A stretch of DNA of 37,633 nt from Clostridia bacterium (GTDB taxonomy: Bacteria; Bacillota; Clostridia; Christensenellales; Aristaeellaceae), in the NCBI GenBank assembly GCA_017521565.1, contig JAFXCE010000148.1, positions 1 to 37,633 on the forward strand, read 5' to 3'. The notes below the pieces were generated by a model that searched no databases, was not told where the DNA came from, and saw nothing but the letters and a program-made list of their open reading frames with translations. Of the stretch, positions 24,991 to 37,633 are shown piece by piece (within the stretch, counting starts at the first letter, position 1; the number at the start of each line of letters is the position of its first letter). Both the position numbers and the translations under genes were made by a program.

Positions 24991-25029
24991 TTTGGTTTGT
25001 AATTCTGTTTCCGCCGTTCTGCGCCTGCC

Positions 25030-34797: not shown

Positions 34798-35210
34798 CAG
34801 CTTAAATCAGATACAGGTTAAACCATCCTTTACAAGTGAGTTCGCCCAGACATTCTCCCATGGCTGTATTGCACGCACTGCGTGCCGCTCCCGGGCCGCT
34901 TCGCCGGGCTTTATTGTGACCCGAGGAACTCGCATAGTCGCGGCATACTGCCGCTCCTTGCGATTCCCGACACTCCGCCTGCCTGCTTCCGCCACTGGCT
35001 GCGGCAGGCTGCGGTCCCACGGACGCCGCCCGGCTACGCGCTAGCCAAGTACAATGCTGCACTCAGCTGAGACATTCCGGGAGAGTAGGCACAACGGAGG
35101 GCAAATTGATTCTCTGCACTATCCGCTCCCGGGCGTTTATTGTAGCGGCGCGCTTTTCATGTCACGCCGCGCGCGCTCTATGTCACACTTACTATACAGC
35201 CAAAAATGCA
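34798..35210. other. GC-rich gene-free stretch at the edge of the prophage-like block
   Basis: No convincing gene was seen. It holds a GCACGC-ACT-GCGTGC hairpin (34871-34885). The 12-base motif CCGCTCCCGGGC occurs twice (34885-34896 and 35123-35134), each followed within about 20 bases by TTTATTGT. There are several other GC-rich inverted repeats, for example around 35141-35180. Short arginine-rich reading frames here have no ribosome site and look accidental. It may be a degraded repeat element or an attachment-site region; that is a guess. Confidence 0.5.
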
Positions 35211-35242
35211 AAAAGGCGACCATTTTATGCAGGTCGCCTTTT
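35211..35242. terminator. Terminator of the holin-like/methyltransferase unit
   Basis: AAAAGGCGACC (35211-35221) / GGTCGCCTTTT (35232-35242), an 11-bp stem with a 10-base loop. On the minus strand TTTTTGC follows; T residues flank both sides, so it may be bidirectional. Confidence 0.88.
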
Positions 35243-35277
35243 CTTCATTCATGCAGTTTTTTGCGCCGTCTGAAGCG

Positions 35278-35769
35278 TCAGAAGGGCTCTGTCAGCTCGC
35301 CGTTTTTCTCGGCCTCAGTTTCCTCCGTCCGAGCGGTCTTCAATTCAATGCCTTCCTCACTCAGCAGGCGGGCCGCTTCTACCAGCTCGTCATTCTTCTG
35401 CGCTTCCGGCAGAGCAATCGCGCGCTCGTATACGCCCATCGCAGCAAAGGCAACGATCACCGCATTGAGCGCGGCCAGCGCAACGACCTCCGGCGTGAAC
35501 GCCTGCGCCGTGAACAGCTGCGCCAGCAACAGCACGGCCAGCGATACAACGTAAACCAGCACCCTCGTCGGGACATGGCCGATCCTGTCGATCGGCAGCT
35601 TGAGGAACTGGACGATGAACACAACGGCAGCCACCGCGCCGGAATAGGTCGCCAGATAGCTCCAATCGAAGAAGGCGTTGACGCCCGGCTGGGACGCCTC
35701 GGCACAGGCCGGAATAGCGAACACCAGCAGCATCGCAAGGGTCATAACCAGCAGATTAAGTTTCTTCAT
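35278..35769 (-). CDS. Small membrane protein, probable phage holin-like
   Basis: 163 residues. An N-terminal hydrophobic segment resembling a signal peptide (1-23, PACAEA), two further membrane segments (about 44-58 and 70-88), possibly a third near 95-112, then a charged tail rich in Glu. It starts within the last 14 bases of the methyltransferase gene with an ideal AGGAGG, so translation is probably coupled. Its place next to a lysin and a phage-type methyltransferase suggests a holin. I cannot name the family from sequence alone; another phage membrane protein is possible. Confidence 0.6.
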   Translation of the reverse strand: MKKLNLLVMTLAMLLVFAIPACAEASQPGVNAFFDWSYLATYSGAVAAVVFIVQFLKLPIDRIGHVPTRVLVYVVSLAVLLLAQLFTAQAFTPEVVALAALNAVIVAFAAMGVYERAIALPEAQKNDELVEAARLLSEEGIELKTARTEETEAEKNGELTEPF

Positions 35770-36499
35770 AATGTACCTCCTGAATGTACCTCAGATCCGT
35801 TTGCAGGCGCTCTGAGGCCGTCTTTGCAATATCCGGGGACAATTCCACCCCTATAGAATCATATCCCTCAAGCTCCGCTGCAGCCAACGTCGTGCCGCTT
35901 CCTGCAAACGGGTCGAGGATCCTGCCGCCCGGGACACAGATCCGACAGATGCTGCGCATCAATTCGAGCGGCTTTTGCGTCTGATGCAGGCGCTTTACAC
36001 CCTGCACATTGCCCGCCTGAAACACGCCCGGCAGTACCGGCACAGGGCGGTCGATCGGCAGCTTGCCATTGCTCGCCCAAATGGCGAACTCAGCCTGCTG
36101 ACGGAATCGGCCTCGCTGCGGCCTGCTGCTCATCTTGTCCCATACGATCGTGCCGCGCCACATCCAGCCCGCCCATTGCACGGCATCGGCTAGCAGCGGC
36201 AGCTGCCTCCAATCGCAGAAGGCAACCAGCACTGCGCCATCGTGACAATGAACGCGCGCAGATGAAAGCACGTCAGCCATCATGTGAAGCCAGCTCCGGG
36301 CGTCCATCTGGTCGCCAGCGAAATCAGGAAACGGGCAGCAGCGCTTGGTGCTTGTATATTTCTCGGCGGTCGAGGCAGCGCGCTCAGAAAGCGTCGCCCC
36401 GCCGCTGGAATACGGTGGATCCGTGATTACAGCGTCAAACTTGGGGCCGTTATAGTGAGTCAAAAATTCCCGGCAGTTGCCTTGGTAAAGTTCCAGCAT
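35756..36499 (-). CDS. Phage-type DNA methyltransferase (beta class, N6-adenine or N4-cytosine)
   Basis: 247 residues. The catalytic motif IV DPPY (27-30) comes before the S-adenosylmethionine motif I DPFAGSGTT (196-204), with HQTQKPLELM just before it; this order defines the beta class. It transfers a methyl group to an exocyclic amine of DNA. No restriction endonuclease lies beside it, so it is an orphan, as is common in prophages, where it can protect phage DNA or affect regulation. AAAGGAG precedes the ATG. The target site is unknown. Confidence 0.9.
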   Translation of the reverse strand: MLELYQGNCREFLTHYNGPKFDAVITDPPYSSGGATLSERAASTAEKYTSTKRCCPFPDFAGDQMDARSWLHMMADVLSSARVHCHDGAVLVAFCDWRQLPLLADAVQWAGWMWRGTIVWDKMSSRPQRGRFRQQAEFAIWASNGKLPIDRPVPVLPGVFQAGNVQGVKRLHQTQKPLELMRSICRICVPGGRILDPFAGSGTTLAAAELEGYDSIGVELSPDIAKTASERLQTDLRYIQEVHYEET

Positions 36500-36591
36500 G
36501 GAAGTGCTCCTTTCGACTGACCGGCAAAGTTTTCTGCGTAGGGTTTATACACCGCTGTACATCCCATTACAGATCAGGGTTTTCCCCTCTC

Positions 36592-36620
36592 TTGTGCCGT
36601 CTTTTTGGGTCTGATATAAT
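36592..36620 (+). promoter_or_regulatory. Extended -10 promoter of the structured RNA
   Basis: TTGTGC (36592-36597), a 17-base spacer, TATAAT (36615-36620) preceded by TGA. Both adjacent genes are on the other strand, so this promoter serves neither of them. Confidence 0.78.
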
Positions 36621-36626
36621 AGAAGA

Positions 36627-36795
36627 AACACACTCCATGTTTGAGCAGGAGAAAAGCTGACGCCGCACTTCCACCTGCGTCAGCTTTCCGATTGGCGGCA
36701 TGTTTTCTGGCCGGAAAGCATACCGCCATAGACTCCTTTTCCTGCTCAAACACTCATGTGTCAGCGGGCTGCATCAGCATCCCGCTTTTTCTATT
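36627..36795 (+). ncRNA. Candidate structured small RNA, about 170 nt
   Basis: It runs from the predicted start of the promoter at 36592-36620 to a U-tract terminator. A 12-bp perfect stem GTTTGAGCAGGA (36639-36650) / TCCTGCTCAAAC (36740-36751) encloses two hairpins. Hairpin 1 is AAAGCTGACGC (36653-36663) / GCGTCAGCTTT (36677-36687) with a 13-base C/U-rich loop. Hairpin 2 is GGCGG (36694-36698) / CCGCC (36723-36727), one mismatch, then an 8-bp stem with one wobble and loop TGGCCG. The result is a three-way junction. No open frame with a ribosome site was seen in it. I do not recognise the family; 6S RNA (rod-like) does not fit. It lies in a prophage-like block, antisense to neither neighbour. 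Confidence 0.65.
36763..36795 (+). terminator. Terminator of the structured RNA
   Basis: AGCGGG (36763-36768) / CCCGCT (36781-36786) with an inner CTG/CAG pair, then TTTTCTATT. Orientation is plus only. Confidence 0.85.
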
Positions 36796-36820
36796 GCATT
36801 ACGTTTCTTCATGTGTTATC

Positions 36821-36838
36821 ATAATAATGGATTATTAT
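36821..36838. repeat. AT-rich palindrome ATAATAAT-GG-ATTATTAT
   Basis: A perfect 8-bp inverted repeat, 28 bases past the lysin stop (plus side of the RNA terminator). It may be a protein-binding site or chance in AT-rich DNA. Confidence 0.35.
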
Positions 36839-36865
36839 ACTTTCTTGACCACTACCCGCTTTGGG

Positions 36866-37633
36866 TTAATCAATGCTGCCCAGCAGCACTCGGAAATCTC
36901 CGACCGGCTCGAAGCGGTTTCCCCTGCTGTCGATAATCGTCACCTTCTGTGTATCCGGCGTTTCCACCTCGACCTCCTCGATGATTTCCTCTTTGATCTC
37001 CGTCATAGAAACAGGCGTCAGATACTGCCCGCTGACATAACCTTCCAGTTCATTGAAGCGGATAAGCGGCCAGCCGTCGCCGATGTCCTTTAGGACGTCC
37101 ACGATGCACCCCTTATCGACATGCCCAAGAATTTCGCCGGTCTTGGGCTGTGCCCTCACGCGCAGCGGATCCTCATTGGTGGAAATGGTCGCCTGATACA
37201 GCACGGTAGCCGCCTCGGTTTCCTGCTGCACCTCCTCGGAATAGTCCACGAAATTGAGCGCCGCAACGTACTGCCAGCTGCTGTCCAATTTCTCGCAGAC
37301 AAAGCCGTACTTCTCACCCTTCGCGTGCAGTACATGCTTGCCGTCACGGCTCACAAGGCCAACGTGCTTAAAGTTTCCGAGACCGTCGCTGTACTTCTCC
37401 TCGAGTTCTGCCGTCTCGAAGTCCTTGCGCCACCTAAAGGCCGCATAGCCCGGCTTGGCAGCACTGATCGGCAGCAGCATCGGGCAATTGAGGCGCGCGA
37501 TCCTGTTGCTACTGTGCAGCACGTCGGGTCTGCCGAACTGAGCGGCGGCATAGTCAAATGCGCCGGAGCAGTCCACTTCGCCCTCGCTTGCTGCGCCGTA
37601 TTCGTACTCCCAATGCTCCTCTTCCATGGTCTC
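36866..37633 (-). CDS. Phage-type endolysin with NlpC/P60-like and SH3-like domains (start probably outside the window)
   Basis: An in-frame ATG occurs at 37627, but the frame continues to the window edge and the catalytic cysteine would be only 20 residues in, so the true N-terminus is probably missing. Counting from that ATG: VDCSGAFDYA with Cys20, FKHVGLVS with His88 and VLHAKG with His101 form a likely NlpC/P60 or CHAP-like Cys-His peptidase, which cuts peptidoglycan. Residues ~140-205 fit a bacterial SH3 domain (RVRAQPKTGEILGHVDKGC ... GYVSGQYL). The tail is acidic. It precedes the methyltransferase and holin-like genes on the same strand, with the plus-strand RNA unit in between. Confidence 0.78.
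   Translation of the reverse strand, partial: ETMEEEHWEYEYGAASEGEVDCSGAFDYAAAQFGRPDVLHSSNRIARLNCPMLLPISAAKPGYAAFRWRKDFETAELEEKYSDGLGNFKHVGLVSRDGKHVLHAKGEKYGFVCEKLDSSWQYVAALNFVDYSEEVQQETEAATVLYQATISTNEDPLRVRAQPKTGEILGHVDKGCIVDVLKDIGDGWPLIRFNELEGYVSGQYLTPVSMTEIKEEIIEEVEVETPDTQKVTIIDSRGNRFEPVGDFRVLLGSID

Follow-up and report, generated by a model that had tools for sequence, protein, structure and literature searches.

A candidate regulatory RNA element between a lysin-like gene and a DNA methyltransferase gene of a Mu-like clostridial prophage

The locus at the right end of a Mu-like prophage

The window, by which we mean the whole 37,633-nt stretch of clostridial DNA that was analysed, closes with part of a prophage in which two minus-strand genes, one for a lysin-like protein and one for a DNA methyltransferase, are separated by a gap (Table 1). 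Reading of the sequence places a candidate RNA element in this gap at window positions 36592-36795, on the strand opposite to both neighbours, as the initial annotation had it. The same annotation named the right-hand neighbour a lysin; the gene product carries an SH3 domain (PF08239) and is lysin-like, its identity as a lysin being unproven. From position 35137 onward the window matches an IMG/VR contig (93% identity, 1657 columns), whose other end finishes with CTACA, giving the phage the ends TGTAG and CTACA, and which encodes a Mu-type transposase (Mu-transpos_C) and an S24 repressor at the opposite end. Within the genome of the window, contig C62 carries a transposase 81% identical to that of the IMG/VR relative and, about 4 kb away from it, a Mor-family activator (PF08765, E 6.8e-17); C62 and the window are inferred to belong to one prophage. 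With a transposase, a Mor-type activator and TG...CA ends all present, the sequences point to a Mu-like transposable phage, and the prophage setting suggested earlier can thus be specified as the right end of such an element. Judged by the transposase, the nearest named phage is Faecalibacterium phage FP_Mushu at 26.5% identity.

Two relatives of the element were found, one in the IMG/VR contig (86%) and one in a decayed prophage of genome G022 (69%), in which the lysin-like gene contains a stop. The gene order lysin-like gene, element, methyltransferase is common to both, and a search of G022 for the methyltransferase at E up to 1e-40 gave no match. The stretch leading from the element to the methyltransferase gene is strongly conserved too, and includes a dyad that is perfect in the window and is the sole copy in the IMG/VR record, in C62 and in the phage part of the window; its counterpart in G022 is imperfect. 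This region is a possible methyltransferase promoter or operator (Table 1) and, if a separate promoter there is real, the locus would consist of two divergent transcription units. On the other flank of the element, the approximately 70 bases between the terminator and the lysin-like gene (36792-36865) contain an AT-rich inverted repeat, and the relatives are shorter and different there. At the prophage end lies a gene for a 163-aa protein (35278-35769) that is 99% identical in the IMG/VR relative and has no Pfam or PHROG match, and a neighbour protein of the IMG/VR relative gave one weak match, at 31% identity, in the window's genome, which was left out of account.

Table 1. Features of the prophage end and of the candidate RNA element, in window coordinates
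Feature	Position	Strand	Details
Right-end part of Mu-like prophage	35141-37633		End begins TGTAG
DNA methyltransferase gene	35756-36499	-	247 aa, N6_N4_Mtase
Methyltransferase start region	36499-36513	-	Shine-Dalgarno-like AAAGGAG, then GCACTTCC, A of ATG; repeats the hairpin-1 loop in inverted form
Conserved region, possible promoter or operator	36544-36572	-	TATAAA (36544-36549) and dyad CTGTA-N8-TACAG (36555-36572)
Promoter-like site	36592-36620	+	TTGTGC 36592-36597, 17-nt spacer, TATAAT 36615-36620, TG 36612-36613
Predicted transcript, candidate small RNA	36627-36790	+	About 164 nt, inferred from promoter and terminator sequences
Three-way junction	36638-36752		Closing stem of at least 13 bp (36638-36650 / 36740-36752)
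Hairpin 1	36653-36687		11-bp stem, 13-nt loop 36664-36676; CGCACTTCCA invariant in three homologues
Hairpin 2	36693-36728		
Intrinsic terminator	36764-36791	+	Hairpin 36764-36785 (-12.6 kcal/mol), then TTTTTCT
SH3-domain lysin-like gene	36866-37627	-	PF08239; at contig end

Signals, fold and distribution of the element

Both an extended -10 promoter and an intrinsic terminator had been proposed for the element, and sequences resembling each are present. The motif TGNTATAAT occurs three times in the window against 0.44 expected. The -35 hexamer matches TTGACA at 3 of 6 positions and the terminator stem contains an internal mismatch, which is probably why a stricter consensus scan of 36400-37000 returned no promoter and a single terminator-like site other than the one listed in Table 1. 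Promoter spacing is equal in all three homologues, and a full TATAAT and a T-tract are each found in two of them: the IMG/VR relative has an identical -35, identical spacing, TGnTATAAT and the T-tract TTTTCT, and G022 has a degenerate -10 (AACAAT) and a weak CTTATT. The description of the RNA as autonomous agrees with these promoter- and terminator-like sequences, on which it is founded, and it competes with the reading of the same region as a minus-strand methyltransferase leader.

The plus strand is predicted to fold at -84.0 kcal/mol (z -7.3) and the minus strand at -92.3 kcal/mol (z -8.0), in each case with none of 200 shuffles as low. The three-way junction with two strong hairpins that had been annotated on the plus strand is thus recovered, with a closing stem longer than the 12 bp first given, and the minus strand folds at least as well. 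Indeed, the minus fold is the lower one in all three homologues (-92.3 vs -82.2, -78.5 vs -68.0 and -69.8 vs -58.8 kcal/mol). In the IMG/VR relative both strands fold far below shuffles; G022 folds weakly (z -0.86, -1.96 and -2.50). Counting G-U pairs gave 9 minus-strand cells vs 2 plus-strand cells when the structure was derived from the minus strand and a balance of 6 minus to 4 plus when it was derived from the plus strand, and G-U pairs were rejected as the decider of strand because the count shifts with the strand used to derive the structure. The promoter and terminator favour the plus strand, and fold energy, G-U pairs and the loop-start complementarity described below favour a minus leader; as a transcription unit, the element leans towards the plus strand.

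Conservation of the stems was assessed in an alignment of the three homologous sequences, in which 134 of 136 cells are paired (98.5%), compared with 34 to 48% when partners are slid. Five of the 46 pairs have changed on both sides, and sliding the partners yields 0 to 2 such pairs. In all eight pairwise comparisons the number of broken pairs is below that obtained by placing the substitutions at random (P 0.0002 to 0.045); two-sided changes, taken for each pair of sequences, exceed chance more weakly (P 0.015 to 0.63). The five two-sided changes in three sequences give modest compensatory support, and the structure is probably under selection, as judged from these few homologues (n = 3). Loss of the stems in relatives, which the initial annotation had named as grounds for refutation, is not seen in these three sequences, G022 with its weak fold among them.

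The distribution of the element appears narrow. A DNA search of 29 genomes of the genus gave some match in 28 at E up to 1, and below 0.01 only in the window's own genome and in G022. With the covariance model R1, matches at E up to 0.1 came from 29 of the 308 genomes of the family, strong ones only from the same two (202.7 and 161.2 bits, respectively, followed by 25.6 bits). Of 396 genomes of the order, sampled evenly from a larger group, the window's genome alone matched at E up to 1e-5. When eight weak R1 loci and locus L085 were searched again, nine matches were obtained, 6 of the 7 alignments shown consisting mainly of the terminator hairpin or hairpin 1; the weak hits were discarded. 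Across 38 loci around relatives of the methyltransferase or lysin-like gene, three of which (L085, L091 and L092) end inside the methyltransferase gene and hold no DNA upstream of it, R1 was strong only at L121, the G022 locus, with a next best E of 0.09. A distant blastn search of phages and plasmids gave no match at E up to 0.01. Five viral-contig loci carry a 17-nt loop pattern; four, with unrelated surroundings, were rejected as chance and the fifth is the known IMG/VR relative. Rfam, a match in which the initial annotation had named as grounds for refuting its proposal, places the element in none of its families at the gathering score: Rfam 15 reports only a tRNA at 1091-1164 across the whole window, four matches in 36500-36900 at E up to 5 all fall below the gathering score, and L048 and L002 give no match. 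In the literature searched, we recognised no description of this element. By sequence comparison, then, the element is real, conserved and structured; it belongs to a narrow group of related Mu-like prophages and carries, in its sequence, the signals expected of a small RNA gene.

Complementarity between the hairpin-1 loop and the methyltransferase start

Of the 13 positions of the hairpin-1 loop, 10 are invariant in the three homologues. The sequence GCACTTCCA has two copies in the 37.6 kb, one in this loop and one inverted across the methyltransferase start, so that loop and start region form an inverted repeat, which is present in all three homologues. Nine nucleotides are shared between the loop and the start region, as happens for 0.12% of random 13-mers drawn from this DNA. 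On the minus strand the two segments can form 9-10 bp, with a predicted energy of -21.7 kcal/mol in G022 and of -17.5 kcal/mol in each of the other two homologues, and 0.16% of random 13-mers pair as well with the start region; the match was spotted first and these chance tests were made afterwards. In 13 of 13 methyltransferase relatives that have no element and whose start is included, GCACTTCC is missing from the start region. The nine matching bases never vary among the homologues, and the loop-start pairing is therefore without covariation support. Geometry counts against the pairing, as 9-10 bp must fit within a 13-nt loop. The plus-strand RNA is identical, and not complementary, to the methyltransferase start. 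Together, these observations make a link between the loop and the methyltransferase suggestive only.

Possible function and alternative explanations

From the fold, the transcription signals and the inverted repeat we tentatively propose, with a probability of roughly 0.4, that the element encodes a regulatory RNA by which the Mu-like prophage controls its neighbouring DNA methyltransferase. In the likeliest form of this proposal, the plus strand would be transcribed from its own housekeeping-type promoter into a three-way-junction RNA of about 164 nt ended by the terminator, and this RNA would be antisense to any transcript passing from the lysin-like gene into the methyltransferase. Such a leftward transcript would fold as well, and its hairpin-1 loop, UGGAAGUGC, could pair in the cell with the methyltransferase start, GCACUUCCAUG, and hold down translation, with the antisense RNA tuning or removing the leader. 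The phage might in this manner keep its DNA-modifying enzyme off until late, RNA taking the role that Com and a special promoter have in phage Mu. The regulatory reading gains from a related methyltransferase in phage Smp131 that overlaps an annotated translational regulator gene, and a possible methyltransferase promoter downstream of the element, at the TATAAA, speaks against it, since it would give a leaderless methyltransferase mRNA.

Unlikely, yet the most serious competitor, is a purely cis-acting arrangement in which only the minus strand matters: the element would be the leader of a late lysin-methyltransferase mRNA, hairpin 1 would mask the start with its loop, and the plus promoter and terminator would be chance or vestigial. 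The lower minus folds in all three homologues, the G-U count obtained with the minus-derived structure and the complementarity of loop and start region on one strand are all consistent with such a leader, which however requires read-through from the lysin-like gene, leaves unexplained a plus promoter with its 17-nt spacer and a T-tract just past the structure that are kept in the IMG/VR relative, and loses most of its G-U advantage when the structure is derived from the plus strand. We also consider it rather unlikely that the element is a trans-acting prophage small RNA whose loop, CGCACUUCCAYY, would target phage or host mRNAs by pairing at their ribosome-binding sites, the methyltransferase match being incidental. 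Its own promoter and terminator sequences and a C/U-rich, largely invariant loop would suit this role, C/U-rich loops being usual in small RNAs of Gram-positive bacteria; against it, the two other 9-nt complementary-side matches to TGGAAGTGC in the 35.2 kb of the IMG/VR relative (at 25028, and at 1886 on the minus strand) appear to lie in coding sequence and not at starts. It is fairly improbable that the structure is passive and regulates nothing, acting between two late genes as a terminator or to stabilise an mRNA end; the element would then be ordinary. In the relatives the lysin-like gene has its 3' end close by, as would suit such a structure, and a second prophage contig in this genome also folds strongly (z -6.0) in the gap behind its lysin-like gene, although that gap is a different one; yet the lysin strand has no T-tract after the terminator hairpin, and a simple terminator would have no need of so long a stem, of a pair of hairpins or of a loop that hardly varies.

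The remaining explanations carry little weight. That the structure is a feature of the DNA itself, either what is left of a small inverted-repeat transposon or a cruciform bound by protein, is very improbable: folding of both strands and the inverted repeat formed by loop and methyltransferase start would be expected of it, but the element has one match in its own genome at E up to 0.001 and occupies the same place in three of three relatives, so there is no sign of mobility, and a mobile repeat was dropped on the strength of the single genome match. About as doubtful is a phage RNA aimed at the ribosome, in which the plus-strand RNA might bind pre-ribosomes or immature 23S rRNA in late growth. 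Over 14 nt, the plus hairpin-1 loop is the complement of a G022 23S rRNA hairpin that lies close to the 3' end of that molecule (L050, 18950-18970); the window's loop pairs with this 23S rRNA at a predicted -31.9 kcal/mol, the loop of the IMG/VR relative uses U-G pairs, and the assembly of the window's genome yielded no 23S match. Among the 11 readable of 12 loci in the genus, one has the exact 14-nt site, three match it over 13 nt (one genome supplying two of these) and seven differ more, so the site is variable in the genus and the complementarity is probably due to chance. Least credible of all is a minus-strand gene for a short peptide. The initial annotation held that no coding frame explains the element, and although small frames do cross it (59 and 60 aa on the minus strand, 150 and 78 aa on the plus strand), Pfam gave no match for the two minus frames and none better than E 0.027 for the plus frames. 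One minus frame (FEQ...GSAAS) is partly alike in the three homologues, and two 12-nt gaps in G022 keep it in frame, but DNA identity alone yields a similar reading, the frame starts with GTG in the window and has no clear ribosome-binding site, and in the least decayed relative, the IMG/VR phage, it contains a stop and an indel of 1 nt. The element is thus unlikely to be protein-coding. A retron was set aside, as there is no reverse transcriptase among the neighbouring genes scanned. Nor was any evidence seen for the packaging-type RNA that had been suggested as one option, the packaging site of phage Mu lying at the opposite, left end; the broader idea of a regulatory RNA fares better, given a structured element that Rfam does not match, promoter- and terminator-like signals and stems kept in the relatives.

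The favoured regulatory reading invites comparison with phage Mu, in which com and mom are located at the right end. There, as here, the right end of the phage has a DNA-modification gene past its lysin-like gene, the start region is conserved, and post-transcriptional control comes into question, although in our case it is only suspected; here, however, the gap at 36500-36865 holds no Com-like gene, only small overlapping frames and a structured RNA in its stead, and the enzyme is an N6/N4 methyltransferase and not Mom. Com is described as stimulating mom translation by binding the mom start region (PMC9369418), and mom as a cytotoxic modification gene of Mu under elaborate control that includes late promoters (PMC4461284). 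In Smp131, a phage of the Peduoviridae, the related methyltransferase is 47.6% identical, and the overlapping regulator is annotated as a protein, unlike the RNA element considered here. A cis-encoded antisense RNA is also familiar from phage P22 as sar. Further cis-encoded phage antisense RNAs covered in a review include lambda aQ and BTP1 STnc6030, which are likewise short and are encoded opposite phage genes (PMC12197685); the present candidate, by contrast, would lie in a gap and not opposite a coding region, and is predicted from sequence signals. Hence the element would fit a known kind, the phage regulatory RNA, in an unusual position, with a plausible link to the methyltransferase start. 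Some members of the GOLLD/ROOL/OLE class are phage-borne, and GOLLD, ROOL and OLE are several times longer than the present element. These RNAs are presented as large, ornate, structured bacterial non-coding RNAs (PMC12286853). If the regulatory reading is true, an RNA switch at the place matching that of com and mom would give a distant Mu-like phage an answer to a similar problem that dispenses with protein, in the form of a compact antisense or leader system.

Two further observations concern the neighbouring genes elsewhere. On contig G000:C86 of the window's genome (L097, 130686-132998), the first part of a lysin-like gene is nearly identical to that of the window's gene and both contigs end there; the strongly folded gap downstream of it (z -6.0) differs from the element and leads to a 103-aa gene, with no methyltransferase. 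At G018:C87, G238:C118 and L085, relatives of the methyltransferase sit at the ends of contigs and match only from residue 122 or 123, a pattern suggestive of a repeat at which assemblies break; G238:C118 and L085, whose contigs are equally long, may be one record.
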